A stretch of 62,581 bases of DNA. Source: Oscillospiraceae bacterium (GTDB lineage: Bacteria; Bacillota; Clostridia; Oscillospirales; Oscillospiraceae). Position 1 is the stretch's first letter. The number at the start of each line of letters is the position of its first letter. Positions 5,756-18,280 of the stretch are shown in pieces. The notes under the pieces were generated by a model. It was not told the origin of the DNA and made no database searches. It worked only from the letters and a program-made list of their open reading frames with translations. The translations under genes and the position numbers were made by a program. Where the stretch lies: assembly GCA_017549125.1 (NCBI GenBank), contig JAFYVL010000067.1, positions 1 through 62,581 on the forward strand, read 5' to 3'.

Positions 5756-6034
5756 ATGTCTACTATCGAAATCACCTCTAAAATCGAAAGCCTCCGGGAA
5801 CTGGAAGAACTGATTGAGGAAGCCAAGACCGAGGCCGAAGCCCTCCGGGATGAAATCAAGGCTGAAATGCTCAGCCGGAACACCGAGGAAATGAGTGTTG
5901 GTCAGTATATCGTGCGCTGGACTTCCGTTCTGTCCAACCGCTTTGATACCACCGGCTTCAAGAAGATGTACGCCGACCTTTACAAGGAGTACACCAAGCA
6001 GAGCGCAAGCCGCCGCTTCACTATCAGCGCATAA
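5756..6034 (+). CDS. Conserved 92-residue coiled-coil island protein (A)
   Basis: The start at 5756 has AAGGAG upstream. Residues 1-45 are a charged helix (LRELEELIEEAKTEAEALRD). The C-terminal half has a strand-like part followed by SNRFDTTGFKKMY and the tail SRRFTISA. The island B protein (14018-14296) is far more alike (SNRFDTTGFKKLY) than the cargo genes, so this is a core function. It is the first gene behind the XRE-controlled promoter and precedes the small recombinase, which suggests an accessory or control role in recombination or replication. No named family is recognised. Confidence 0.75.
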   Translation: MSTIEITSKIESLRELEELIEEAKTEAEALRDEIKAEMLSRNTEEMSVGQYIVRWTSVLSNRFDTTGFKKMYADLYKEYTKQSASRRFTISA

Positions 6035-7321: not shown

Positions 7322-7753
7322 TTAATCAAAATAAGTAATTTCGCCATCAATGATACCGCTATAAGAGTTTGCTCCGTTTTCATCGGCTAAGGTAATAAGA
7401 ACGCATACATTCAACCCTTCAAATACATCACACAGTTTGGGATATACATCGGAGAAAATATCTTGTGTCATACCAACCAACACATATTCCGGGTAGTCGC
7501 TGCTGTCAACAATACTTTTGAAATACCGTGCGTGAACTTTGTAGTATGGGCCGCCTGCAGTTGTTGTATCGTATTCAGCAGAATAACCGCAACCCACAAA
7601 CGCCTCAGAGTTCCATTGTGCTACCAGTTTATCAGCTTCTGCACACGCCTGTTCTACGGTTTTGGGCTTGTCTGCGGGGGCTTCCTGTACAGCACAAGCA
7701 CACAGGGACAGGCACATCACGAGTGCCAAGATTAGGGATAATGCTTTTTTCAT
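7322..7753 (-). CDS. Lipoprotein, cargo of island A
   Basis: The product has 143 residues. The signal peptide MKKALSLILALVMCLSLC leads to a lipobox LCAC with the lipidated Cys at residue 20. The mature part contains YSAEYDTTTAGGPYYKVHAR and a short alpha/beta pattern. It should be anchored on the outer face of the membrane. In island B a different lipoprotein (15092-15523) occupies the same slot, so surface lipoproteins are typical cargo here. Function unknown; a role in surface exclusion or envelope modification is possible. Confidence 0.7.
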   Translation of the reverse strand: MKKALSLILALVMCLSLCACAVQEAPADKPKTVEQACAEADKLVAQWNSEAFVGCGYSAEYDTTTAGGPYYKVHARYFKSIVDSSDYPEYVLVGMTQDIFSDVYPKLCDVFEGLNVCVLITLADENGANSYSGIIDGEITYFD

Positions 7754-7774
7754 AGTGTGTTCCTTCTTTCTGTA

Positions 7775-7965
7775 AAATAAAAAGTGCGGCTACCGAAGTA
7801 ACCGCACAAAAAACGCAAACTCCGATAGTCGCCAAACTAACTGAGATAGCAAGAGCCTTGCTTATACACAGAGGAATTTGCATTTTTATCAAATTCATAG
7901 TGTATAAGACCAAAAGGGTATACTACCCCTATGGCTCTTGGATGAACTATTCAGTTAGTTTGGCA
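7775..7965 (-). ncRNA. Structured ncRNA divergent from WYL (island A), about 190 nt
   Basis: On the minus strand a promoter (7971-7999) is followed by a 13-bp closing stem (GCCAAACUAACUG with CAGUUAGUUUGGC), an internal loop, a 7-bp stem (AAGAGCC/GGCUCUU) and two enclosed hairpins. One is GGGUA-gua-UACCC; the other is a long arm (UUAUACAC/GUGUAUAA over GAAUUUG/CAAAUUC). A conserved linker CGGAGUUUGCGUUUUUU and a terminator (stem GTGCGGTTAC-ttcg-GTAGCCGCAC, 7784-7807, then T run) complete it. Island B has the same architecture with different paired bases (15752-15971). A hydrophobic ORF inside runs through the terminator, so the RNA itself is the likelier product. Confidence 0.8.
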
Positions 7966-7970
7966 TAGAT

Positions 7971-7999
7971 ATGATACCACGCCCGTCAAGAAAATTCAA
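7971..7999 (-). promoter_or_regulatory. Promoter of the island A ncRNA
   Basis: On the minus strand, TTGAAT (7994-7999), 17 bp, TATCAT (7971-7976). The start would fall at the first bases of the closing stem. The island B promoter has the same geometry. Confidence 0.75.
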
Positions 8000-8079
8000 T
8001 AGAAATTGGAAAACTGCGGCTTTCCTCTTTGCTTTTGGTATGATATACTTACAGAAAACCCGCCACGGGAGGGGAAACT

Positions 8080-9249
8080 ATGGCAGAGCCGAAAAAGCTT
8101 GTCCGGAGTTCTGAATGGGACTTAGAGAAGCGAACACCGGAACGAGGCAAGAAGAATAACCAAAAGTTAAAGTCCTATGTTGTGCTGCAATATCTCTTAA
8201 AGAATACGGATGAACAGCATGTAGCCACCGCAAGTGATATTATCGGCTATTTGGAGGATTGCGGTATTGAGGCAGAGCGGCGGTCTATCTACCGGGATAT
8301 TGAGGACATTAACCGCATTAGGCTCATGCTCCAAGAGGAAGTGGATTTGGATGAGGCGGATATGATGTTTGCAGAAGCGGAAGAATCCGGTGATGAGGAA
8401 GAAATCAACGAACTGAAAACAATCCTTTATGATAAACACCGGAAAGGCTTTTATGTCCGGCAGCGCAAATATGACCTGAACGATATTCGTCTGTTGGCTG
8501 AGTGCGTGTATTCTGCAAAATTCATTGCAGAGGGTCAGGCAAGGCGTCTTGTGGATGTAGTCTGTGAGTTCGTGAGTGAGCCGCAAGCCCAAAGAATCCG
8601 ACACAACGCCTTGCTTACAGACCGGGTAAAGACAGACAACCGGGGCGTGCTGAACAACATAGCAGCCATAAACGATGCTATGAGTATGAATATAGACGGG
8701 CAGCCGCACACACCGGAGAAAATCACCTTCAAGTATCTGTCCTATTCCATCGGTGATATGCGCCAACAGATAGAACGGCGCAAGGGCGCAAGCTACACGG
8801 TCAGCCCCTTCCAATTACTTATCAATGACGGCAACTACTATCTATTGGCCTTTGACGAGCAGCGACAAGATATGAGAACATACCGGGTTGACCGCATGAA
8901 GGATATTCGATTCACCGGAGAGGCCAGGGACGGCGCAGAAGCCTTTGAAGCTATCGACCTGAAAACATACACCAAGCGGGTATTCTCTATGTACGGCGGC
9001 GAACAGAAGCTTGTGGAGATGCGATTTATCAATCCGCTGTTGGATGCTGTTGTTGACCGTTTTGGTACAAAGGATGTGCAGTACGCAAAGGTGGACGATA
9101 AGCATTTTGGCGTTACCGCAAAGGTGGAAATCAGCGACCAATTCTTTGGGTGGCTTTTGGGCTTTGGCAAAAAGGCAAAGCTGCTATACCCGGATGATGT
9201 AATAGACCAGCTCCGGGCTTACATGGATAAGATTCGAGAAATGTATTAA
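8080..9249 (+). CDS. WYL-domain transcriptional regulator (island A)
   Basis: The product has 389 residues. The N-terminal winged helix is at about 25-80 (LKSYVVLQYLLKNTDEQHVA, then ERRSIYRDIEDINR). An acidic insert is at about 85-125, absent from the island B protein. The WYL domain is at about 210-270, with the NYYLLAF and TYRVDRM strands, followed by a C-terminal WCX-like region. WYL proteins sense ligands, often nucleic acids or nucleotides, and regulate mobile or defence loci. It is divergent from the ncRNA over a 114-bp region. An extended -10 (TTGGTATGATATACT) shared with island B precedes it, and GGAGGGG precedes the start. Confidence 0.9.
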   Translation: MAEPKKLVRSSEWDLEKRTPERGKKNNQKLKSYVVLQYLLKNTDEQHVATASDIIGYLEDCGIEAERRSIYRDIEDINRIRLMLQEEVDLDEADMMFAEAEESGDEEEINELKTILYDKHRKGFYVRQRKYDLNDIRLLAECVYSAKFIAEGQARRLVDVVCEFVSEPQAQRIRHNALLTDRVKTDNRGVLNNIAAINDAMSMNIDGQPHTPEKITFKYLSYSIGDMRQQIERRKGASYTVSPFQLLINDGNYYLLAFDEQRQDMRTYRVDRMKDIRFTGEARDGAEAFEAIDLKTYTKRVFSMYGGEQKLVEMRFINPLLDAVVDRFGTKDVQYAKVDDKHFGVTAKVEISDQFFGWLLGFGKKAKLLYPDDVIDQLRAYMDKIREMY

Positions 9250-9269
9250 ATAGTTAGGGAGGTTGTTAT

Positions 9270-9917
9270 ATGAAAACTCTTCAAAAGGCTTTTGCAATTG
9301 CTCTAATAGCACTCTCTGTGATATGCACTCGTTGGCCTGATGCTGAATTGATGACGAGCATTGTGTATGCGGTGGTTATCCCGTCTTTTATCCTTTCTGT
9401 GATTTCGTTTGTTACAGAAGTATCTGAGCATTGCGAGAAGGAAGCCGAAAAACTTGCAAAACTTGAGGAAAAAGTATCACACAGCGCCGAGAAGTTTGCT
9501 CAAGAGCGGCTTAAACAGTATGAGAATGGTACTCACGAGCAGCCTTATGATAAGGACAAAATACCCATTGATATTTACAATGCAACAAAGGATAGTGTTG
9601 ATTATTTAGAAAAATCGCTTGTTTCTAAAAATGTGCAGATTTTTTGTGTTAAATGCAAAAATGTCTGCAACAAACTTATCACAGGCGGATATGTGCTGCT
9701 CATTCTGTCCCTAAGTCTTTCCCCCTATATTGCAAAGTGGTTGTCTGTTATTGACTTAAACTGCATTACAATGTGGTCGTTGACCCTTCTCTACATTACC
9801 CTTGATTTGAAATCGGATATTTGTGCATGGGTTTTCAACAAACTTCACGCAGGAAGCAAAAAGAGGCGGGCAAAGAAAAAGAAAAAAGAAAATACTGAGG
9901 AAGCCTCTGTTAAGTAA
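9270..9917 (+). CDS. Membrane protein with cytosolic coiled coil, cargo of island A
   Basis: The product has 215 residues. Two hydrophobic segments lie near the N terminus (7-20 and 27-47), then a charged coiled coil (about 50-95, EKEAEKLAKLEEKVSHSAEK), then two more hydrophobic segments (about 137-155 and 163-180), and a Lys-rich tail (KKRRAKKKKKE). It is 20 bp downstream of the WYL gene with a GGGAGG site, so probably in its operon. Island B has no gene in this slot. Function unknown. Confidence 0.65.
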   Translation: MKTLQKAFAIALIALSVICTRWPDAELMTSIVYAVVIPSFILSVISFVTEVSEHCEKEAEKLAKLEEKVSHSAEKFAQERLKQYENGTHEQPYDKDKIPIDIYNATKDSVDYLEKSLVSKNVQIFCVKCKNVCNKLITGGYVLLILSLSLSPYIAKWLSVIDLNCITMWSLTLLYITLDLKSDICAWVFNKLHAGSKKRRAKKKKKENTEEASVK

Positions 9918-9936
9918 AAATACGATAAAGACAACA

Positions 9937-9976
9937 AACAGGAGTAAGATTCTTTTGCGAATCTTACTCCTGTTTG
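9937..9976. terminator. Bidirectional terminator between cargo and integrase (A)
   Basis: AACAGGAGTAAGATTC pairs with GAATCTTACTCCTGTT around TTTTGC, with A-rich and T-rich flanks. It separates converging genes. Confidence 0.85.
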
Positions 9977-9977
9977 C

Positions 9978-10907
9978 TTATCTTTGTATCCTTGCCTTTG
10001 TCTTTTGGAACTGCGCAAGGGGTGAATGTAGGTCATAGTCCTTTCCCACATCACTATCGAACACCCGGCAATAGTGCTTTGTCATGTTCAAGGTGCTATG
10101 TCCCATCAGCTTTTGGAGGGTGAACGCATTGCCGCCACAATCCAACAGATACTTACGGGCAAAGGTATGCCGGAACTTGTGGATGGATGTACTGTTGACC
10201 CCTCTGCTTTTGTTGTACCGGGTGATTGCGTGGCGCAAGGCATCCTCCGTCAGCATACCGCCGTACACATCACAGAAAAGATAATCTTCCGGTTTGCCGC
10301 CTCTTATCTTCATATATTCCCGGAGGATATTTGCCATAAGGCTGCACAGCGGAATGACCTGAATTTTGCCATTTTTATTGTGGCGGAACACTACTTGCGA
10401 AGCTTCAAAATCCACATCCCGGTTTTGGATATTGCGCACCGTGGCAGCACGACAACCGCAATTCAGGAGGAAGTTTACCACGACCCAACTTCTGAACTCC
10501 CCGAAGTCGCAGCCTTTCTCCGGGCGTTGGAGCAACCGCCGCAATTCCTCATCGGTATAGGTTTCTTTCACCGTTTCCTTTTCTTTGATTGTGGCAATGG
10601 TGAGGGAGGAAAGGTTTTCGTTACCGCACCAGTTATAGAAGGTTTTGAGCATCCGGTTATAGGTGGCAATTGTATTGTGCGCTAGTCCGGCCTTCCGCAT
10701 TGCGACTACCATAGCTTCAATATCTCTTTTGGAAACGGCATCAAACGGCCTTTCTGCATCGAAATAGTTTTTCATATTCTTCATGTTGTAGCGGTAATTG
10801 CGGATTGTAATATCCGCCACGCCTTTTGCTGTCTGAGATGTTATAAACATCTCAAAAACTTCTAAAAAGTTCTTAGATACTTCCATTGGCATTGTTATTT
10901 TTTGCAT
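9978..10907 (-). CDS. Tyrosine integrase of island A
   Basis: The product has 309 residues. The start at 10907 has GAGGTCAAG upstream. The N-terminal SAM-like core-binding domain (about 14-100) is followed by the catalytic domain with Arg153 (CGCRAATVR), His243 and Arg246 (IHKFRHTFA), His270 (LMGHST) and nucleophile Tyr279 (MTKHYC). It ends 106 bp from the att core at 11013, which places it beside the right end as expected for tRNA-site integrases. It should recombine the 47-bp tRNA-Thr core. The island B integrase is a clear homologue with the same catalytic layout. Confidence 0.95.
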   Translation of the reverse strand: MQKITMPMEVSKNFLEVFEMFITSQTAKGVADITIRNYRYNMKNMKNYFDAERPFDAVSKRDIEAMVVAMRKAGLAHNTIATYNRMLKTFYNWCGNENLSSLTIATIKEKETVKETYTDEELRRLLQRPEKGCDFGEFRSWVVVNFLLNCGCRAATVRNIQNRDVDFEASQVVFRHNKNGKIQVIPLCSLMANILREYMKIRGGKPEDYLFCDVYGGMLTEDALRHAITRYNKSRGVNSTSIHKFRHTFARKYLLDCGGNAFTLQKLMGHSTLNMTKHYCRVFDSDVGKDYDLHSPLAQFQKTKARIQR

Positions 10908-10914
10908 AAAACTT

Positions 10915-10956
10915 GACCTCATCCCTACTTAAAATTATCAAGTGAGGGATGAGGTC
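10915..10956. promoter_or_regulatory. Inverted repeat in the integrase leader (A), resembling the att core
   Basis: GACCTCATCCCT (10915-10926) pairs with AGGGATGAGGTC (10945-10956), and ACTT/AAGT extends the stem. The first arm matches the att core segment GACCTCATCCTT in 11 of 12 bases. It lies between the integrase start and the tRNA terminator, so it may bind the integrase and control its gene, or be a Xis/Int arm site. Confidence 0.6.
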
Positions 10957-10980
10957 ATACAAAACCACGATATAAAAAGA

Positions 10981-11012
10981 AAAACCCCGAAACTCAAGGA
11001 GTTTCAGGGTTT
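10981..11012 (-). terminator. Island-borne tRNA terminator (A right end)
   Basis: AAAACCC-C-GAAACTC pairs with GAGTTTC-A-GGGTTTT. It directly follows the att core on the minus strand, so integration restores both the tRNA 3' half and a terminator. Confidence 0.85.
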
Positions 11013-11095
11013 TGGAGCTGCTAGCCAGATTTGAACTGGCGACCTCATCCTTACCAAGGATTGGAGGGGCTACGCCCCTCCCGGGGACGCTCTAC
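11013..11095. other. att site between islands A and B (47-bp core plus tRNA-like arm)
   Basis: The core 11013-11059 is identical to the other two copies. On the island B side it continues with a 19-nt hairpin (11063-11081, stem GGAGGGGC/GCCCCTCC) and then CGCTCTAC (11088-11095), a D-arm piece. The hairpin has the same length and loop size as the one at 1271-1289 but different paired bases. Confidence 0.85.
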
Positions 11096-11327
11096 CGCAA
11101 CACCAAAAACATCAAAGACTCGTGTTTCCTAACGCTCCGCTGTCCGGAGCGTTTCTTTTATGCGTTATCAGAACGCATCTCTCTTGTGTAATCATTATAC
11201 CGCAAACTCAAAGAAAAATCAAGAACTTCAAGCATCTTTCCACGCCCTTTATCATCCCTTTATCAAAAATAAACATCTCTATATCATTGTTCAAAAAATA
11301 ATTTTCAAATATCTAAAAAATTTTTAT

Positions 11328-11365
11328 GGGGTATCCACACTATTGGATACCCCATATGGTATAAT
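11328..11365 (+). promoter_or_regulatory. Extended -10 promoter under a palindromic operator (island B)
   Basis: TATAAT (11360-11365) is preceded by TGG. The palindrome GGGGTATCC (11328-11336) and GGATACCCC (11345-11353) covers the -35 area. It drives the YxGL gene whose leader carries GGGTTGCGACCTACCG. The rest of the gap 11096-11461 shows no gene. Confidence 0.65.
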
Positions 11366-11461
11366 GTTGGCACAACGAGTGAGGGACAGAAAAACCTCAC
11401 AAACACAAAAATAGGGTTGCGACCTACCGCCACGACCCAAACGGGTCAGAAAGGAATCCTT

Positions 11462-11962
11462 ATGTCCTCCAAGAATGTCGCTGCCGCTGGCAGCACCACG
11501 GCCCCCGCCACCGTTTATTTCACTTTTGACCACATTCAAAAGAAGATTGTGGGAAGCGAGTACCACTTCAAAAAGGCCGGCATCCCTGACTCTCCGCAGT
11601 ATAAGGCTCTAATGTCCGCTGTGGAAAGTCAGCCCACCTATGCCCTCTTGTCTGTCGCCTCCAAAAGAAAAGTCGAGAATAAGCGTACATACGCCGGATT
11701 GAACGCACCTTTGATGGAAAAGTATATCGCAATTCAGCCAAACAGCGAAAAGCTTCAGGCCGAATTGGAAAAGATGAATACCGACAAGGCACATTTCTCC
11801 GCCAAAAAAAGTTGGTTCATTGATGCCTTTCCCGGCTTTGATGTCCGGCGTGCGGAAGCTGAAATCCGGGAACATAAGCTATCCACATACAAAGGTATTG
11901 TCCGGAAGGTTATGCCTAAGGCAAAGGCATCACTTGAAATCCCTAAGGCTGTCAATCAGTAA
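11462..11962 (+). CDS. Island protein of the YxGL..YMExYI family (island B)
   Basis: The product has 166 residues. The start at 11462 is preceded by AAAGGA. The blocks AGLNAPLMEKYI (about residue 81) and KKSWFIDAFPGFD (about 116) match those of the two island A proteins in order and spacing. The N terminus is Ala/Ser rich and the C terminus is basic (KVMPKAKASLEI). It is transcribed alone and ends at its own terminator; island A's extra copy and wHTH gene are missing here. No known domain. Confidence 0.75.
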   Translation: MSSKNVAAAGSTTAPATVYFTFDHIQKKIVGSEYHFKKAGIPDSPQYKALMSAVESQPTYALLSVASKRKVENKRTYAGLNAPLMEKYIAIQPNSEKLQAELEKMNTDKAHFSAKKSWFIDAFPGFDVRRAEAEIREHKLSTYKGIVRKVMPKAKASLEIPKAVNQ

Positions 11963-11968
11963 AATACC

Positions 11969-12001
11969 GCCTCTGCTTCACATAAAGCAGAGGCAATTTT
12001 T
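11969..12001 (+). terminator. Terminator of the island B YxGL gene
   Basis: GCCTCTGCTT pairs with AAGCAGAGGC, then AATTTTTA. Confidence 0.85.
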
Positions 12002-12108
12002 ATATGAAATTTTTGGGCAGATGAGCGTAATTGATATAGTGCAATTTTTATATAATATAGGGAAAATACCCGGGGGAGCTGCTGCTTGATTTCCCTACAT
12101 CATACTAA

Positions 12109-12180
12109 GGAGAAGCTTGAACAACATTTCGTAACGCGTGGCTTCGCCACGCTTATACTCAAAGTTGTTCAAGCTTCTCC
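12109..12180. repeat. Long perfect inverted repeat ahead of the amber-ORF operon (B)
   Basis: The 17-base arm 12109-12125 is the exact complement of 12164-12180, and a second hairpin (GCGTGGC-ttc-GCCACGC, 12136-12152) sits inside. It is 45 bases before the 12225 start, like the double hairpin in island A. It could be a leader RNA element or a DNA structure such as a replication or transfer site. Confidence 0.7.
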
Positions 12181-12224
12181 TACACTGCCCCAAACACAAA
12201 AAACAAAGGAGATATAAAACAATT

Positions 12225-12392
12225 ATGGATAAATTGAAATTACTATCCCGGCAAAACGGCACACTTCCTGACCGCTATTGGTATCAGCTCAACAGCAAAT
12301 CACCATTAGAAAACTATATCGAGCAGAAGCAATCAATGTTGGATGCTGATACAGATGAGTTGATAATTAGAAGTGAGGTCGTTGTAAAATGA
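12225..12392 (+). CDS. Small island protein ahead of the amber ORF (B)
   Basis: The product has 55 residues. The start at 12225 has AAAGGAG 10 bases upstream; the longer open frame to 12138 passes through the inverted repeat and is not used. The C terminus RSEVVVK resembles SEVKLK of the island A counterpart, and the stop TGA overlaps the next ATG (ATGA). Function unknown. Confidence 0.65.
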   Translation: MDKLKLLSRQNGTLPDRYWYQLNSKSPLENYIEQKQSMLDADTDELIIRSEVVVK

Positions 12393-12520
12393 GCCAATAG
12401 GACAAAAGAAAGAAAAAGAAGAAATCCAATATTGAAGCACAAATCGTTGCCATCGTCAATCAAAGTCTGAAAAAAGCGGTCAATGAAGCGATAAAAGATT
12501 TATTCAAAGACTTCAAATAA
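12389..12520 (+). CDS. Lys-rich mini-protein interrupted by one in-frame TAG (island B)
   Basis: From ATG 12389 the frame reads MSQ, TAG (12398-12400), DKRKKKKKSNIEAQI, and continues to FKDFK and TAA at 12518-12520. It is the homologue of 3649-3786: from the shared Ser onward the two align without gaps for 31 residues to FKD[WF]K. The TAG positions differ between copies (codon 4 here, codons 13 and 18 there), which argues against a shared frameshift or pseudogene origin. The context CAA-TAG resembles known leaky amber sites. Confidence 0.6.
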
Positions 12521-12522
12521 AG

Positions 12523-12566
12523 AACGGCAGTCTGTTCCAATTTTAGGAGCAGACTGCCGTTTTTGT
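12523..12566 (+). terminator. Terminator after the amber ORF (island B)
   Basis: AACGGCAGTCTG (12523-12534) pairs with CAGACTGCCGTT (12550-12561), then TTTGTC. It is equivalent to 3790-3830 in island A. Confidence 0.85.
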
Positions 12567-12721
12567 CGTTATAGCCGTTTGACGGCTTTTATGTGTATCT
12601 GTTCGACCACAGACACATACCTTCGTCTTTTGGAATAAAACCCACTCAGGGAAAGGGAATCGGCCACGCAATGCGCCTTTTCGATTCTGTGGCTTTTGAT
12701 TCCCGGAATATAGCCCCCAAG

Positions 12722-13621
12722 TTAGGGACACTTTGCCATAACCCCGGTCAGGTAATTTACAAAAGCACAGCATGAAACAAGCATGTACTTTGCTTCCTCA
12801 AAAGTGGCGTCATTACCATCAAGTTCGCCTGCATGCCGGATTCCGGAAGCACCATTTGTGTATGCATATAGCTTCTCAAACGCAGCGGCAAGTTGCGAAT
12901 GGATAGATATTCCTTTCTTTTGGAGAATATTTAGGGCTGCACCTAATGTTGTGGACTTTCCAACGATAATGGAACACATTCGCTCAACAGCACTAATACT
13001 TTCTTTGATAGAGTTTGCGTAGTCAGGTGCTTGTCGATCAGAAAGAAACCCTAGTGCCTTGTTGATATGCTGTTGCACCTCGGTATGCTTACTTGCGACC
13101 GCCTCTTGGATGGATTGAATCTCATTCTCATCAGTAATGAGATGTGCCTCACAGTTGATAAGTCTATACCCTACATATTCCTGCTCAAAAACTAAGTTGT
13201 AGAGACTTTCCGCTGTATAATTCTTGCCTTTATAATATATGTTCTTTTTCTTGAGCGTCATTATTTGTTTGGCAAAATATTCAATTACCGTTAGTATTGC
13301 ATCATAGTTTTCTAATGCAAAGGTATCTTTTACAATTCCTATGACCTTATCGTAATGATAAAAGTGAGACCAGTCAACCACCACACTATAAACATCAGCT
13401 AACAGATTTCTCATAAAGTTTTGTTCTAGCTGATGATTTAAACTACTTACATGTGCAAAGCGCATATCAGGGAAATAGGCTTGAATGATATAATCTGTCA
13501 TATTCATTAATGCTACCCGTGTGCGATTATCAAACTCCGTAGTTTGTATGGTTGTATTCTCTTCCTTTATCTTATTGCGGTCAGAAAATCCGTCACGGAG
13601 TGCAACAGTATATTTTGCCAT
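12722..13621 (-). CDS. Abortive-infection-like protein (AbiJ-type with HEPN-like C terminus)
   Basis: The product has 299 residues. The start at 13621 has an AGAGGT site and lies 2 bp after the XRE stop. The C-terminal third (VERMCSIIVGKSTTLGAAL, AAFEKLYAYTNGASGIRHA, YMLVSCCAFVNYLTG) matches my recollection of the Abi-like C-terminal domain, a HEPN-related all-helical fold with a conserved Arg-His (residues 262-263). The N-terminal region is helical, as in AbiJ N-terminal domains. Such proteins are thought to cleave RNA or arrest growth during phage infection. Position behind an XRE repressor in a cargo slot supports a defence role. Confidence 0.7.
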   Translation of the reverse strand: MAKYTVALRDGFSDRNKIKEENTTIQTTEFDNRTRVALMNMTDYIIQAYFPDMRFAHVSSLNHQLEQNFMRNLLADVYSVVVDWSHFYHYDKVIGIVKDTFALENYDAILTVIEYFAKQIMTLKKKNIYYKGKNYTAESLYNLVFEQEYVGYRLINCEAHLITDENEIQSIQEAVASKHTEVQQHINKALGFLSDRQAPDYANSIKESISAVERMCSIIVGKSTTLGAALNILQKKGISIHSQLAAAFEKLYAYTNGASGIRHAGELDGNDATFEEAKYMLVSCCAFVNYLTGVMAKCP

Positions 13622-13623
13622 AT

Positions 13624-13836
13624 TTAGACCTCTTTCTCGATGTATTCTATCAAATCTCCCGGCTGGCAATCCAGCAGACGGCAAAGGGCTTCGATGTTCT
13701 CCCAGGACACGCCTTTGCCAGAACGCAACTTCTGAATCGTTGATTCACTCAATAGCTTTTCTTGACGGATTTTATAGGATGTGTACCCCTTTTCTTTCAG
13801 GGTAGCAACAACATCAATTTTGAACTGTAATGGCAT
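13624..13836 (-). CDS. XRE-family repressor, island B
   Basis: The product has 70 residues and is a single helix-turn-helix domain (KGYTSYKIRQEKLLSESTIQ, then SGKGVSWENIEALCRLLDCQ). The C terminus, CQPGDLIEYIEKEV, matches that of the island A repressor. The start at 13836 has AAAGGAG; upstream in-frame codons run into the divergent gene. It is co-transcribed with the Abi-like gene. Three palindromes ACACGA-N4-TCGTGT lie in the divergent promoter region, a different operator from island A, so each repressor likely controls only its own island. Confidence 0.85.
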   Translation of the reverse strand: MPLQFKIDVVATLKEKGYTSYKIRQEKLLSESTIQKLRSGKGVSWENIEALCRLLDCQPGDLIEYIEKEV

Positions 13837-13880
13837 AATTATGCTCCTTTCCCATTGTAGCTTTATTATACCACAGACAT

Positions 13881-13970
13881 ACACGAAAACAAGTGTATAA
13901 AATATACAAAATAAAGCACGACTTTTCGTGCATATTACCAATAGACAATACACGAATAATCGTGTATAAT
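13881..13970 (+). promoter_or_regulatory. Promoter and three XRE operators (island B)
   Basis: Palindromes lie at 13881-13896, 13916-13931 and 13950-13965 (consensus RCACGA-N4-TCGTGY), 34-35 bp apart. The last fills the spacer between TAGACA (13942-13947) and TATAAT (13965-13970), which are 17 bp apart and drive the 92-residue gene. Confidence 0.8.
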
Positions 13971-14017
13971 ACAGACAGTTAGAAAACATAACACCAAAAA
14001 TAAAGGAGATAACAATT

Positions 14018-14296
14018 ATGTCTAAGAATGAACTGGTAAGCAAAATCGAAGCCCTGAACGAGTGGGAAGCCATTATGGAGGAAGCTAAGGAACAGGCCGA
14101 GGCCATCCGGGACAGCATCAAGGCTGAAATGCTGGCACAGGACACGGAGGAACTTCAAGCCGGAGCCTATATCATCCGCTGGACTTCTATTCTGTCCAAT
14201 CGCTTTGACACTACTGGATTCAAGAAGCTATACGGTGACCTTTACAAGCAATACACCAAACAGATTGCCAGCCGTCGTTTTACCATTAGTGCCTGA
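14018..14296 (+). CDS. Conserved 92-residue coiled-coil island protein (B)
   Basis: It is the homologue of 5756-6034, sharing the helical N terminus (EWEAIMEEAKEQAEAIRD) and the C-terminal block SNRFDTTGFKKLYGDLY with SRRFTISA at the end. The strong similarity against diverged neighbours suggests a conserved partner or DNA site. AAAGGAG precedes the start. It lies behind the XRE-controlled promoter and ahead of the small recombinase, exactly as in A. Confidence 0.75.
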   Translation: MSKNELVSKIEALNEWEAIMEEAKEQAEAIRDSIKAEMLAQDTEELQAGAYIIRWTSILSNRFDTTGFKKLYGDLYKQYTKQIASRRFTISA

Positions 14297-14345
14297 TGTA
14301 AAAAACCGTGGGCTGAAACGCCCACGGTATTCCAAAAGAGTAAGA

Positions 14346-14447
14346 GTTCGTAAAAGATAAATAATACGAACAGCAAAAACAAGGCATTATGCGGTGTGTG
14401 GCCGTCCGCCTCAATTATACGAACAATCCGCCAGCGAAAATACGAAC
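14346..14447 (+). promoter_or_regulatory. Conserved TACGAAC sites ahead of the small recombinase (B)
   Basis: GTTCGTA (14346-14352) and TACGAAC (14365-14371) have a 12-bp spacer, plus direct copies at 14418-14424 and 14441-14447. The motif is unchanged from island A although the island B repressor uses a different operator, so these are more likely sites for the recombinase or another conserved protein. Confidence 0.65.
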
Positions 14448-14468
14448 TTTCGACTATTGGAGGTTGCT

Positions 14469-15032
14469 ATGAATAAGAAAACAAAAGCCCTGACCGAAGG
14501 GCAGTATAAAGAGATTGTCCAGACTATGAAGCAAGGTTTTTGCGGCTGCCGCCCCAACGAGCGCATAGCAACCGCCCTTGTGTTGGAAGCAAATCTAGGG
14601 TTGCGTATCAGCGACATACTAAAACTGCGACCCTGTGATATTGTCCGGGATGGAGACCGCTACCGTTTGGAGATTGTGGAGCAGAAAACCGGGAAGCGCA
14701 GAATCTTCACCGTGCCTTTGGTAATTCAGCAGTATATCGAAAACTATTGCTTGCGTTCCGGTATCCGGCACACGGACTTGATTTTTCCCATCACAGAACG
14801 AGCCGTTCAGAAACAGCTGGCTATGGTCTGCGATCATTTAGGGTATGATGGTATCAGCACTCACAGCTTCCGCAAATGGTATGCTACTGAGATTTACAAA
14901 GCCAACGGCTTTGATATTGCCCTTGTACAAAGGCTTTTGCAGCACAGTTCCGCCTCTACCACACAGCGGTATATCGGCATCGAACCGCAGAGGATAGAAC
15001 AAGCCATTGCCAATCACGCACAGTTGATATAA
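14469..15032 (+). CDS. Small single-domain tyrosine recombinase (island B)
   Basis: The product has 187 residues and is nearly identical in layout to the island A enzyme: Arg in GLRISDIL, HSFR, LLQHSS and Tyr in TTQRYIG are all present. The start at 14469 follows TTGGAGG. It also lacks N-terminal DNA-binding domains. It is followed by a terminator and a converging lipoprotein gene. Conservation of a second recombinase next to conserved sites in both islands points to a function separate from the terminal integrase. Confidence 0.9.
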   Translation: MNKKTKALTEGQYKEIVQTMKQGFCGCRPNERIATALVLEANLGLRISDILKLRPCDIVRDGDRYRLEIVEQKTGKRRIFTVPLVIQQYIENYCLRSGIRHTDLIFPITERAVQKQLAMVCDHLGYDGISTHSFRKWYATEIYKANGFDIALVQRLLQHSSASTTQRYIGIEPQRIEQAIANHAQLI

Positions 15033-15033
15033 A

Positions 15034-15061
15034 AACAGGGAGCCACGAATGGCTCCCTGTT
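15034..15061 (+). terminator. Terminator of the small recombinase (B)
   Basis: AACAGGGAGCC pairs with GGCTCCCTGTT around ACGAAT. Confidence 0.8.
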
Positions 15062-15091
15062 AGTCGGATTGCGAATCAGCTAAGCTAGTTT

Positions 15092-15523
15092 TTATCCGCA
15101 TTCGGGACATGACACCATCCCGGAGTCACAGTTTGTGCAAATCTCCCGGTAATTTCCGTTACAGGAACATGTTTGAATTATTTCACCATCTTCACAGTGA
15201 CTGCAATCAGGATAATATCGACCATCACCTGAGCAAACTGAACAGCGTTGGTATGTCAAAGTATAAGAATTAAAAGCATAGCCTTTGCTGTCGCAGCTTT
15301 TGCACCACTGTGCCTGCCATGTATCTATGCCTTCGCCGTCACAATATTCACATTCGGAATATATTTTCCCTTCTCTACATTTATAGCAAACTTTTTTCCA
15401 TCCATCAACACATTGAGGACAGGTTATCATTCCTTCCCCATCGCATCTAGAGCAGGTGGTTGTACAAGCGCAGAGTGTTGCGCATATTGCAAATGCCAAC
15501 ATAATAGCAATAGTTTTTTTCAT
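15092..15523 (-). CDS. Lipoprotein with repeated CxxC zinc-ribbon motifs, cargo of island B
   Basis: The product has 143 residues. Signal peptide with lipobox LCAC (Cys20), followed by serial CxxCxGxG-like motifs (CSRCDGEG, CPQC, CYKCREGK, CEYCDGEG, CKSCDSKG, CSVCSGDG, CTNCDSG, CPEC), the pattern of the DnaJ Cys-rich zinc domain. It should be anchored outside the membrane and could bind metal or unfolded protein. A zinc-binding DnaJ-like module on the cell surface is unusual. GGAGG precedes the start. It occupies the lipoprotein slot of the island. Confidence 0.75.
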   Translation of the reverse strand: MKKTIAIMLAFAICATLCACTTTCSRCDGEGMITCPQCVDGWKKVCYKCREGKIYSECEYCDGEGIDTWQAQWCKSCDSKGYAFNSYTLTYQRCSVCSGDGRYYPDCSHCEDGEIIQTCSCNGNYREICTNCDSGMVSCPECG

Positions 15524-15564
15524 TTTATTTCCTCCAAAGTATTAATCTAAGGTCAGGTTTTCTT

Positions 15565-15729
15565 TCATGCAAAAGGGTTTGGATAATCCTTAGGGATGTG
15601 ATATGGACTGCCTTTTTTATCTTGTGTAATTCGCTTGTCCGTGGCAATCATTTTATGGCAAAAATCTTGTACCTTCTTCTGAGATACTCCCCACAGCTTT
15701 GCAGCTTCTTTTGTTCCCATGTCTGCCAT
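15565..15729 (-). CDS. Small helix-turn-helix protein, excisionase-like
   Basis: The product has 54 residues and is found only by reading the sequence. MADMGTKEAAKLWGVSQKKV starts a MerR/excisionase-type helix-turn-helix, followed by QDFCHKMIATDKR and the tail GSPYHIPKDYPNPFA, the usual layout of Xis-like proteins. AGAGGTTG lies upstream. It sits between the ncRNA terminator and the lipoprotein gene and could be the excision factor of island B. No equivalent is seen at this place in island A. Confidence 0.7.
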   Translation of the reverse strand: MADMGTKEAAKLWGVSQKKVQDFCHKMIATDKRITQDKKGSPYHIPKDYPNPFA

Positions 15730-15751
15730 AATTAGCAACCTCTCTTTCTAT

Positions 15752-15971
15752 AAAAATAAAAAAGTGCGCCAACCGAAGCTGACGCACTGAAAAACGCAAC
15801 TCCGATTGTCGCCAAACAAATCTCAAACGCAAAAGGGTAAACCCTACTACTGTCCAAGTGGAATTGCATTTTTAGCAAGTTCATTATGGACAGAAGGCAA
15901 AAAGGGTATACTACCCCCCTGAAAAAAGCAAAAGAGAATACCGATTTTGCGTTATTTAGATTTGTTTGGCA
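15752..15971 (-). ncRNA. Structured ncRNA divergent from WYL (island B), about 220 nt
   Basis: Same layout as 7775-7965: promoter, closing stem (GCCAAACAAAUCU with AGAUUUGUUUGGC), internal loop, second stem (ACGCAAAA/UUUUGCGU), the GGGUA-gua-UACCC hairpin, an inner arm (CUGUCCA/UGGACAG over GAACUUGC/GCAAUUC), conserved linker CGGAGUUGCGUUUUU, and a terminator (GTGCGTCAGC-ttcg-GTTGGCGCAC, 15764-15787). Most stem bases differ from island A but remain paired, which is covariation. The conserved unpaired parts (GGCGAC, AUCGGAGUUGCG, AAAAAUGCAA) are candidates for target or protein contact. Confidence 0.8.
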
Positions 15972-15976
15972 TAAAC

Positions 15977-16005
15977 ATAGTATCACACCTACGGCACGAA
16001 CGCAA
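15977..16005 (-). promoter_or_regulatory. Promoter of the island B ncRNA
   Basis: On the minus strand, TTGCGT (16000-16005), 17 bp, TACTAT (15977-15982), with the start expected at the closing stem. Confidence 0.75.
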
Positions 16006-16083
16006 GATAATTTTCTATTCTGCTCTTTTCTCTTTTCTTTTGGTATGATATACTGACAGAAAACGCTTACCGGAGGGGAAGTT

Positions 16084-17100
16084 ATGGCAGAAGGACAAGG
16101 GCGGTCATCTGGTCAGGGTGTGAAGCTACTTTACATCCGGGACTATTTATATAAGCACGCAACAAAGGAGCATCCCAAGAACGCAAATGATATTTGCGAT
16201 TATCTTCTGACAAAAGAGATTGAATCATCACCCAAGACAATCTATAACGATATTACCAGGCTGAGATACGATTTTGGTGTTCCGGTGGAATACAATGCCA
16301 GCAAATGGGGCTATTACATCACCAAACCGGAGTTTGAACCCCATGAATTGCGTTTAATGGTGGATAGTATTCAGGCCTCCAAATTCATTACCCAGGCAGA
16401 AGCCCGGACAATCAGCCAGAAGATAGTAAAGCTAGCAGATGTTTATACCAAGGAAAGTTTGACCCGGAATGCCTATGTTGCAGACCGTGTGCGAAGCATG
16501 AATGAAAGTGTTGTCCGGGATGCTGACCGCCTCCACCGGGCAATCGCTGAAAACCGCAAGATTGGTTTCCGTTATTTCCACTATACCCCCAGCAAAGAGA
16601 ATCCCAAGCAGTATTCCAAGAAGGGCGATCTATACATTGTCAGCCCCTACGGCCTCCTGTGGGACAACGGCAATTATTATCTATACGCATACATCACCGA
16701 GAAAAACGAATTCCACACCTTCCGCATTGACCGGATGGAGCGTATCACGAATCCGCTTCCAGAAAAGCGTGATGGGGAGGCGGAGTTCAAAAAGGAGCGT
16801 ATTACAAACCAAGCGTTCAAAGTATTTCAGCAGTATCACGGAGAACAGGCCAATGTGCGCATTCGCTTTATCAACCGTTTGGCAGATGCGGTTATCGACC
16901 AGTTTGGTAAGGAAATAATGCTGATTCCAACAGACGAAAAGCATTTTACTGCCACATTGCCGGTGGAACTAAGCCCACCGTTTTATGCCTGGGTGGCTAC
17001 CTTCGGCAGAGGTGCGAAAATTCTGACACCGCAGATCGCCATTGACGGTATGCGAACATTCATTGAAAAGGTAAGCGATATGTATAAAAACGAGGGATGA
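16084..17100 (+). CDS. WYL-domain transcriptional regulator (island B)
   Basis: The product has 338 residues. Winged helix at about 12-75 (SPKTIYNDITRLRYDFG), WYL domain at about 155-220 (NRKIGFRYFHYTP, NYYLYAY, TFRIDRM) and C-terminal WCX-like part. It is shorter than the island A protein because it lacks the acidic insert. The promoter carries the same TTTTGGTATGATATACT block, and GGAGGGG precedes the start. Like its counterpart it is divergent from the ncRNA, so it may control or sense that RNA. Confidence 0.9.
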   Translation: MAEGQGRSSGQGVKLLYIRDYLYKHATKEHPKNANDICDYLLTKEIESSPKTIYNDITRLRYDFGVPVEYNASKWGYYITKPEFEPHELRLMVDSIQASKFITQAEARTISQKIVKLADVYTKESLTRNAYVADRVRSMNESVVRDADRLHRAIAENRKIGFRYFHYTPSKENPKQYSKKGDLYIVSPYGLLWDNGNYYLYAYITEKNEFHTFRIDRMERITNPLPEKRDGEAEFKKERITNQAFKVFQQYHGEQANVRIRFINRLADAVIDQFGKEIMLIPTDEKHFTATLPVELSPPFYAWVATFGRGAKILTPQIAIDGMRTFIEKVSDMYKNEG

Positions 17101-17163: not shown

Positions 17164-18099
17164 CTATCTTCGTGTTATCTTTTCTTTTGGTTGATTCATT
17201 TGAGCCAGCGGAGAAAAACGGTCAAAGTTTTTAGCTATGTCCGAATCATAAATGGCACAATAATGCTTTGTCATTTTCAGGGTGCTATGCCCCAACAGCT
17301 TTTGGAGCATAAACGCATCTCCACCACAGTCAACGAGATATTTCCGGGCAAAGGTGTGGCGGTATAAATGTGTGCTCGTTTTTTCCACGCCTCTCGATCT
17401 ATTATATTTTGCGATAGCAAGCCGTAATGCGTTCATTGTCAGCATTTCCCCAAACTGATTACAGAATAGATATTGTTCCGCCTCACCGCCACGAATGGCA
17501 ATATACTCTCTCAAAATATTCACCATGACACTACACAATGGAATTACTTGAATTTTGCTGTTCTTTGTATGCCGGAGCGTAATTTGCCGGGCATCCAAAT
17601 CCACATCTCGGTTTTGAATGTTGCGAACTGTGGAAGCCCGGCAACCGCTATTGAGCAAGAAATTCACGATTACCCAATTCCGGTATTCCGTAAAATCGCA
17701 ATTCCTTCCCGGCTTTTTCAGAAGCTTCACAAGTTCATTATCCGAGTATGTTTCCTTGACCGTATCTTTGTCCTTCATATTGGGGAGTGTTAGCGTTGTC
17801 ATGTCTTTTTCATTACACCAATTCAGAAATGTCCGTACAATTCGCACATAAGTTGTTATGGAATTATGGGCAAGGCCAGCTTTCCGCATAGCTACAATCA
17901 TTTCATCCAAGTGCTTCCGGGTAAGCTGTTCAAGTGGAATATCCACATCCAAATACTTTGCTATGGTGTGGAGATTATTGTGGTAATTGCGAATTGTAAT
18001 ATCCGCCACATTCTCCGCTGTTTTTGCTGTGATAAAGCTTGCGAATACCTCCGCATAGGTGCTGTTTGTTTCCTTTGTCATCGTAATTTTTCTTGCCAT
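17164..18099 (-). CDS. Tyrosine integrase of island B
   Basis: The product has 311 residues. The start at 18099 (MARKITMTK) is chosen because longer frames run into the tRNA terminator and tRNA. N-terminal core-binding domain, then catalytic Arg (SGCRASTVR), His-x-x-Arg (LYRHTFA preceded by STH), His (LLGHST) and Tyr (MTKHYC). It is homologous to the island A integrase and should target the same tRNA-Thr core, which explains the tandem arrangement. Its stop codon is TAG. It ends beside the right att site. Confidence 0.95.
   Translation of the reverse strand: MARKITMTKETNSTYAEVFASFITAKTAENVADITIRNYHNNLHTIAKYLDVDIPLEQLTRKHLDEMIVAMRKAGLAHNSITTYVRIVRTFLNWCNEKDMTTLTLPNMKDKDTVKETYSDNELVKLLKKPGRNCDFTEYRNWVIVNFLLNSGCRASTVRNIQNRDVDLDARQITLRHTKNSKIQVIPLCSVMVNILREYIAIRGGEAEQYLFCNQFGEMLTMNALRLAIAKYNRSRGVEKTSTHLYRHTFARKYLVDCGGDAFMLQKLLGHSTLKMTKHYCAIYDSDIAKNFDRFSPLAQMNQPKEKITRR

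Positions 18100-18204: not shown

Positions 18205-18280
<76 letters not shown>

Follow-up and report, generated by a model that had tools for sequence, protein, structure and literature searches.

A probable terminator/antiterminator relay in a leader RNA family of Oscillospirales

Attenuator leaders whose antiterminators are regulated by proteins, tRNA or ribosomes rely on a terminator and an antiterminator that are mutually exclusive. In strand-exchange riboswitches, as portrayed in the parts of the reports on the fluoride (PMC11077080), ZTP (PMC10085676) and purine yxjA (PMC9756952) switches on which we draw, competing strands lie in a leader, with a long-range or pseudoknot-like helix and an intrinsic terminator before the gene. 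The HK022 put RNA (PMC9378689) and the LoaP leaders (PMC12691694) are, by comparably partial accounts, structured leaders that affect terminators by acting on the polymerase. Here we describe a structured RNA encoded twice in 62,581 nucleotides from an Oscillospiraceae bacterium (assembly GCA_017549125.1, contig JAFYVL010000067.1; this whole stretch is hereafter the window). It is probably a cis-acting 5' leader and an attenuator of the terminator/antiterminator kind with a relay architecture, and possibly an orphan riboswitch.

Leader position, competing strands, the intrinsic terminator before the gene and the long-range helix are common to this RNA and the strand-exchange riboswitches. Judged on the same passages, it differs from them in lacking an Rfam sequence match and an evident single pathway behind it, and in a linker that serves both an upstream strand and the terminator as partner. 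With the protein-, tRNA- or ribosome-regulated attenuators it has the exclusion of terminator and antiterminator in common, whereas no T-box or other known leader is recognised on it by Rfam and the case for a micro-ORF (a very short open reading frame) is weak. The put RNA and the LoaP leaders, as far as described in those accounts, act on polymerase, whereas the RNA described here has a base-paired antiterminator; the LoaP leaders are set apart by their description.

An initial annotation of the window, made from its letters, had placed two such elements on the minus strand, and both were recovered there (~7774-7965 and 15753-15971). The 17-bp promoter spacing that it reported is borne out by TTGAAT/TATCAT in copy 1 and TTGCGT/TACTAT in copy 2, and the pairings that it had proposed for the closing stems, the second stems and the inner arms hold in the helices of both folds. 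The minimum free energy (MFE) is -76 kcal/mol for copy 1, against a shuffle mean of -41.5 (z -8.70), and -82.3 kcal/mol for copy 2, against -48.9 (z -8.69); none of 200 dinucleotide shuffles was as good in either case. Both copies end in a hairpin and a U-run, that is, in an intrinsic terminator. In the MFE fold of copy 2 a linker-terminator hairpin replaces the terminator closing on itself. The features are as follows.

7774..7965, minus strand: leader RNA copy 1, type A (fold z -8.7; 5' end near 7964/7965)
7994..7999, minus strand: -35 box TTGAAT, copy 1 (sequence; family promoter consensus)
7971..7976, minus strand: -10 box TATCAT, copy 1, with TGG before it (sequence; family promoter consensus)
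7951..7964, minus strand: closing stem P1, 5' strand, copy 1 (fold; family covariation)
7831..7844, minus strand: closing stem P1, 3' strand, copy 1 (fold; family covariation)
7933..7940, minus strand: second stem, 5' strand, copy 1 (fold)
7850..7857, minus strand: second stem, 3' strand, copy 1 (fold)
7916..7929, minus strand: extra hairpin GGGGUAGUAUACCC, a type A feature, copy 1 (fold)
7890..7896, minus strand: strand M (GAAUUUG), pairing locally with L, copy 1 (weak here)
7873..7887, minus strand: strand L (AAAAAUGCAAAUUCC), partner of M or K, copy 1 (15-bp complementarity to K)
7809..7823, minus strand: linker strand K (GGAGUUUGCGUUUUU), copy 1 (complementary to L)
7819..7832, minus strand: antiterminator strand in the linker, copy 1 (-18.4 kcal/mol over 13 bp with 7786-7799)
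7784..7807, minus strand: intrinsic terminator hairpin, copy 1 (fold; stem covaries)
15753..15971, minus strand: leader RNA copy 2, type A (fold z -8.69)
16000..16005, minus strand: -35 box TTGCGT, copy 2 (sequence)
15977..15982, minus strand: -10 box TACTAT, copy 2 (sequence)
15958..15971, minus strand: closing stem P1, 5' strand, copy 2 (fold)
15810..15823, minus strand: closing stem P1, 3' strand, copy 2 (fold)
15945..15953, minus strand: second stem, 5' strand, copy 2 (fold)
15826..15834, minus strand: second stem, 3' strand, copy 2 (fold)
15904..15917, minus strand: type A GGGGUAGUAUACCC stretch, copy 2 (hairpin in the centroid; the MFE fold pairs part of it otherwise)
15860..15873, minus strand: strand L, copy 2 (14-bp complementarity to K)
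15790..15803, minus strand: linker strand K, copy 2 (complementary to L)
15799..15812, minus strand: antiterminator strand in the linker, copy 2 (-18.1 kcal/mol over 13 bp with 15766-15779)
15764..15787, minus strand: intrinsic terminator hairpin, copy 2 (sequence; family terminator covariation)

In copy 1 the antiterminator strand overlaps K and the last two letters of P1, and the MFE fold of copy 2 holds a pairing near-identical to that of its antiterminator strand with 15766-15779.

A blastn search added copies from the same bacterial family, where 7 of 200 genomes matched (own genome included), and from one phage-labelled scaffold. The copies fall into type A, to which both window copies belong and which is marked by an additional GGGUAGUAUACCC-like hairpin, and a type B without that hairpin. 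Covariance models (CMs) of five sequences each were built, R1 for type A and R2 for type B; copy 1 scores 179 bits and copy 2 208 bits with R1, which was built from the copy being scored and four others. A genome search of this kind, which the initial annotation had suggested, found homologues across family and order: R1 matched 55 of 300 Oscillospiraceae genomes (E ≤ 0.001) and, at the level of the order Oscillospirales, R2 matched 103 of 295 (E ≤ 1e-4). Across 299 genomes of the phylum Bacillota, R2 matched only the window's own genome, which is no proof of absence. The own genome is included in these tallies, which are lower bounds, since stricter filters were used and at most 8-9 candidates per genome were scored. 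In 19 genomes chosen for having matches, R2 gave 1 to 16 per genome (E ≤ 0.001). Three copies lie in the own genome, the third of them at C80:19630-19803, whose reverse strand accounts for a weak fourth match (E 0.055). An exact-pattern scan of a named genome collection returned 104 stretches, and the 80 listed, mostly Oscillospiraceae, Ruminococcus or Clostridia and many of them ruminant-derived, are all titled as metagenome-assembled genomes or uncultured, which may explain why the family was missed.

The earlier view that the RNA lies outside known families agrees with Rfam 15, which gave no match at gathering score on either copy. At E up to 10, both copies yielded only matches far below each family's threshold, the best on copy 1 being osmY and L20_leader (22 bits each, thresholds 46.9 and 58.7). 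At 20 homologue loci searched at E up to 1, only tRNA and SAM scored above threshold, both off the RNA, and a few weak matches fell on or near it. Two genome screens (PMC11109978, PMC8632094) report candidate structured RNAs, the same kind of object; their main texts contain none of the terms Faecalibacterium, Ruminococc, Oscill and lipoprotein. No title or abstract start listed by our literature search describes the leader RNA. Going by Rfam 15, the paper searches and the term searches in the two screens, the family is apparently undescribed.

A promoter profile, anchored in 171 of the 220 unique copies, reads TTG, then TGnTAnAAT, with a best spacing of 17 in 121 of them. The stems were scored in a 93-row CM alignment fitted to the modelled stems, including two reverse-strand matches and four truncated rows. 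Standard pairs make up 94.2% of the nested stems, compared with 78.4% in shuffles, and double-sided change occurs in 31 of 37 nested-stem pairs. Both sides change in 10/10 pairs of the main helix of the second stem, 9/10 of the terminator and 10/15 of the closing stem. Within a copy, the longest perfect P1 helix has a mean length of 13.6 bp, against 9.3 bp between copies. The intrinsic terminator is conserved as a stem, as expected of an attenuator. Compensatory change, which the initial annotation had read from the two window copies, is only suggestive on those two alone; the homologue alignment supports covariation. A translated micro-ORF starting at an RUG in the linker gains little support: 121 of 171 copies have the RUG, but in 115 it lies 2 nt behind GGAG, and the frames have scattered lengths with a median of 22 codons.

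The segments that the initial annotation had called unpaired are conserved, as it said, but they are complementary to one another, L with K, and the linker is complementary to the terminator as well. The consensus is AAAAAYGCANNCUCC for L and GGAGNN(N)UGCGUUUUU for K. The K:L pairing was tested in 129 out of 142 copies, whose loop and linker anchors were set independently of it; the 142 are what remained of 145 after removal of one copy with poor K:L and short P1 and two with short P1, which is a slight preselection. The first K:L position is standard in 129/129 copies, where shuffles reach at most 117. L1:K-2 ranks above all 1389 background pairs, and L0:K-1 above all but one, which lies inside P1. 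Weaker positions are exceeded by 6 (L4:K-5), 21 (L6:K-7), 51 (L3:K-4) and 115 (L2:K-3) background pairs, and the A-U part is nearly invariant and thus uninformative. In a CM alignment that does not model K:L, 98.8% of its cells are paired, with 36 double-change cells against 5.2. The same letters of L covary with both M and K in 161 copies (L0:M0 86.6, L0:K-1 67.5, L5:M5 73.5); the M:L register was set by the inner helix, outside which M0 and M5 lie. The 59 copies dropped from the 220 comprise 21 whose loop anchor is not unique, 29 with an inner hairpin below 4 bp, 7 without a U-run and 2 without a terminator. Mean predicted energies in type B are -12.3 kcal/mol for M:L and -15.0 for K:L. A triple helix of the linker U5 with the inner hairpin was discarded by reasoning only, its strand polarity being unfavourable.

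For the antiterminator, the 16 linker letters upstream of the U-run were set against terminators in 211 of the 220 copies. With its own terminator the linker reaches a mean of -16.5 kcal/mol, against -14.7 with permuted terminators; the best of 5000 permutations is -15.2, and none attains the own-terminator mean. After thinning to 85 copies the values are -15.9 and -13.0 kcal/mol, again with 0/5000, although thinning curbs relatedness without removing it and the permutation null is not tree-based. Controls gave -11.8 kcal/mol for the backwards linker, -9.4 for the letter-shuffled linker (210 copies) and -16.3 for the terminator alone. In 60 copies with odd terminator loops the own fit is -16.3, compared with -14.5 for the same linkers on usual terminators, and 15 of the 26 printed beat their swap mean. 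Clear own matches are L043 (-17.1 own, -8.0 swapped), L225 (-19.7, -11.0), the second copy of L098 (-12.9, -4.9) and L048. Between the window copies, a U-A pair at 7827:7791 in copy 1 answers to an A-U pair at 15807:15771 in copy 2. In every one of the 190 copies scorable for both, the antiterminator and K:L have 2-7 linker letters in common, so that either L or the terminator can take the linker, not both. Summed mean energies in type B are about -31 kcal/mol for K:L plus terminator and about -29 for M:L plus antiterminator, loop costs ignored, and the two states are thus predicted to lie near balance in that type.

The position of the RNA was assessed with a simple caller of open reading frames (at least 45 aa, with a Shine-Dalgarno-like site) in 211 copies with 200 nt downstream. 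A frame follows within 400 nt in 200 of them, starting within 30 nt in 147 and within 60 nt in 168. Random positions in the same loci give 115/1500 and 194/1500 at these two limits, and the divergent, upstream side 3/206 and 10/206. The excess of starts within 30 nt over random positions marks the RNA as a 5' leader. The gene directly behind the terminator, absent from the initial annotation, is what most copies share.

From the computed family, stems, M:L and K:L pairings, linker-terminator complementarity, overlap and leader position, we infer the following course of transcription and folding, ON/OFF assignment and signal. A sigma-70 type promoter would make the leader, closed through P1 and P2, and the polymerase would have to pass the terminator to reach the gene. 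With M:L closed, the linker would be free to pair with the upper half of the terminator, leading to antitermination and an ON state. Alternatively, the linker may invade L, the GAG of the linker reaching the CUC beyond M:L; K:L would then use up the antiterminator letters, the terminator would form and the gene would be OFF. The signal may be a ligand, a protein or an RNA that stabilises one arm. The wider reading is about evenly poised between holding and failing: an undescribed class of signal-gated switches in one order, several copies per genome, whose relay of M:L, K:L, linker-terminator pairing and terminator gates surface and accessory genes, either as an orphan riboswitch or as an attenuator read by protein or RNA. 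The leader is present in about one third of the Oscillospirales genomes sampled (103/295), yet it matches no Rfam model. If it is a true switch, it would report a signal to genes for secreted LRR, SLH, lipoprotein, zinc-ribbon and AMP-ligase proteins in gut bacteria. Since the competing strands are known letter by letter, switch and signal are directly testable in vitro.

Several results weigh against the relay leader. The 30-nt limit is missed by 64 of 211 copies, no common pathway is apparent in the downstream genes, and RNA similarity hardly tracks downstream homology (0.716 vs 0.697, a comparison that is not informative). For K:L, 2 of 5 measures in the unmodelled alignment fail to beat shuffles: pairs with both-side change number 2, reached by 103/500 shuffles, and further pair types 8, reached by 454/500. 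Double changes occur in only 2 of 9 K:L pairs. Among 192 copies passing the U-run and loop anchors, 29 are without a 4-bp inner hairpin in register. The 151 copies with usual terminator loops gain little from their own terminator (-16.6 kcal/mol, swaps -15.7), and 11 of the 26 printed odd-loop copies are no better than their own swap mean. Two column tests of the terminator against upstream strands, with arms counted from the base, the linker anchored on the U-run, and loop and P2 left out, gave no strong pair. A third column test likewise gave no covariation for the antiterminator, perhaps because CGGAG and CUUCG hardly vary. In type A, that of the window copies, M:L is weak (-4.3 kcal/mol, against -17.5 for K:L; means over 11 of the 142 copies), so that OFF should dominate there.

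Other explanations have to be set beside the attenuator leader. The terminated transcript could itself be the product, a small RNA acting in trans via the exposed linker or L, with the gene behind living on leakage. Its own promoter and terminator fit this, as do several copies per genome with a common core, some in tandem; the 147 of 211 starts within 30 nt of the RNA end do not, and the complementarity of the linker to its own terminator is kept although a free small RNA has no need of it, which makes this reading unlikely. A leader in the style of HK022 put RNA, modifying the polymerase so that it ignores terminators, would likewise present a structured RNA right after the promoter, then a terminator, and unrelated genes behind; a base-paired antiterminator accounts for the linker letters without it, and we consider it highly improbable. 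A mobile or selfish repeat, with inverted ends that only look like a stem, would suit the several and partly tandem copies per genome and the occurrence of some on islands and in contigs that are viral or phage-labelled. Against it, stem letters vary without loss of pairing, the place before the start codon is regular and several exclusive helices are kept, and this reading is disfavoured as the least credible of all.

The initial annotation had favoured a WYL regulator-RNA system, in which the divergent WYL protein would control, or be controlled by, the RNA. Two genes are concerned in the window.

8080..9249, plus strand: WYL/WCX-domain protein (WYL1), divergent from copy 1 (PF13280, PF25583)
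16084..17100, plus strand: WYL/WCX-domain protein (WYL2), divergent from copy 2 (PF13280, PF25583)

Seven divergent pairs within one bacterial family, with similar spacing and RNAs of both types, speak for such a system, as does an inverted repeat in front of WYL2. The pairs comprise both window copies, L225, L269, L271, L276 and L259 (119 aa only); L269 and L271 carry nearly identical RNAs and are therefore not independent. They represent 7 of the 88 family copies with at least 500 nt upstream, the WYL match lying 92-125 nt upstream on the other strand. Elsewhere, a divergent WYL gene accompanies none of 47 order-level, 69 named-contig and 2 viral-contig copies (0/118). WYL homologues occur in 72 of 120 family genomes, and of these homologues the 29 listed as loci other than those of the window have no RNA match better than E 0.4. 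These counts do not support the system as a general function, nor is the RNA constantly adjacent to a WYL gene; we regard the pairing as very unlikely to explain the RNA, and the WYL neighbour may have been added locally, on a single type of island.

Returning to the attenuator leader, the genes behind the two window copies are the following.

7322..7753, minus strand: lipoprotein-like gene directly behind copy 1 (start 17 nt past the model end)
15565..15729, minus strand: gene for a small helix-turn-helix protein directly behind copy 2 (start 21 nt past the model end)

The latter product matches HTH_59 at E 6e-5, below the Pfam cut-off. Among 168 downstream proteins listed, 143 were scanned, cut at 420 aa, and carry LRR_5 (14), AMP-binding (9), LRR_8 (9), double zinc ribbon (7) and SLH (4) domains, a set with many surface proteins and AMP-ligases, yet mixed. 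By a crude N-terminal rule, 180 proteins starting within 100 nt include 39 lipoprotein-like, 54 with another hydrophobic N-terminus and 69 'other'. Proteins of ~52 aa (MPDYK..) recur behind the leader (L066, L045, L044, L035, L231, L248 and others); 15 fall in one homology cluster, and one member scanned alone had no Pfam match. Leaders stand in tandem at L119, L143, L138, L157, L098, L061 and L064, the matches being 42 to 175 nt apart; at L061 the stretch between the leaders resembles, by eye, a decayed MPDYK gene. At L009, a phage-labelled scaffold, an EcoRI-type adenine methyltransferase gene (575-1720) lies behind the leader; the single EcoRI_methylase match among the scanned proteins was traced to this locus by its sequence.

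The inverted repeat in front of WYL2 spans 16033-16063 with 14-nt arms (79%), and similar letters precede WYL1; it is a possible autoregulatory site. A conserved WYL operator was rejected, as the seven-way intergenic alignment shares little beyond promoter letters. Relatives of WYL2 were sought in viral contigs and none was confirmed. The window also encodes paralogous 92-aa proteins (5756-6031 and 14018-14293, 71% identical), and this protein occurs at the WYL-RNA loci L225, L271 and L276 too; at L254 the 92-aa protein accompanies the RNA, an integrase-like match lies nearby and no WYL gene is found upstream.

Integrase genes surround the window copies, with a further integrase-like match at 17170-18093 and a tRNA-Thr at 18205-18280. 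The covariance models find the RNA in two IMG/VR contigs (L025, L027) and in three unverified 'Bacteriophage sp.' human-stool scaffolds (L009, L311, L312); scaffolds of this kind may be prophage or bacterial. Of eight viral pattern matches, six are not the leader RNA by eye, while L025 and L027 are; two further viral pattern scans were empty, and plasmids gave one chance-level match, then none in a second search.

The GGGUAGUAUACCC element was discarded as a general motif: as a 19-mer with at most one mismatch it occurred only in the own genome among 250, and in no viral contig. This 19-mer, window 7910-7928 on the minus strand, recurs at G000:C62:6571-6598 (L003, ~1501-1528), near a Shine-Dalgarno site, in the 5' untranslated region of a gene that we take, by its sequence, to be dTDP-4-dehydrorhamnose-reductase-like; R2 finds no RNA of the leader family at that locus. 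At 12722-13684 the window encodes an AbiJ_NTD4-domain protein, possibly a phage-defence gene, and at 305-378 it carries a Gut-1 RNA (RF01706, 66.9 bits) near a tRNA-Leu.

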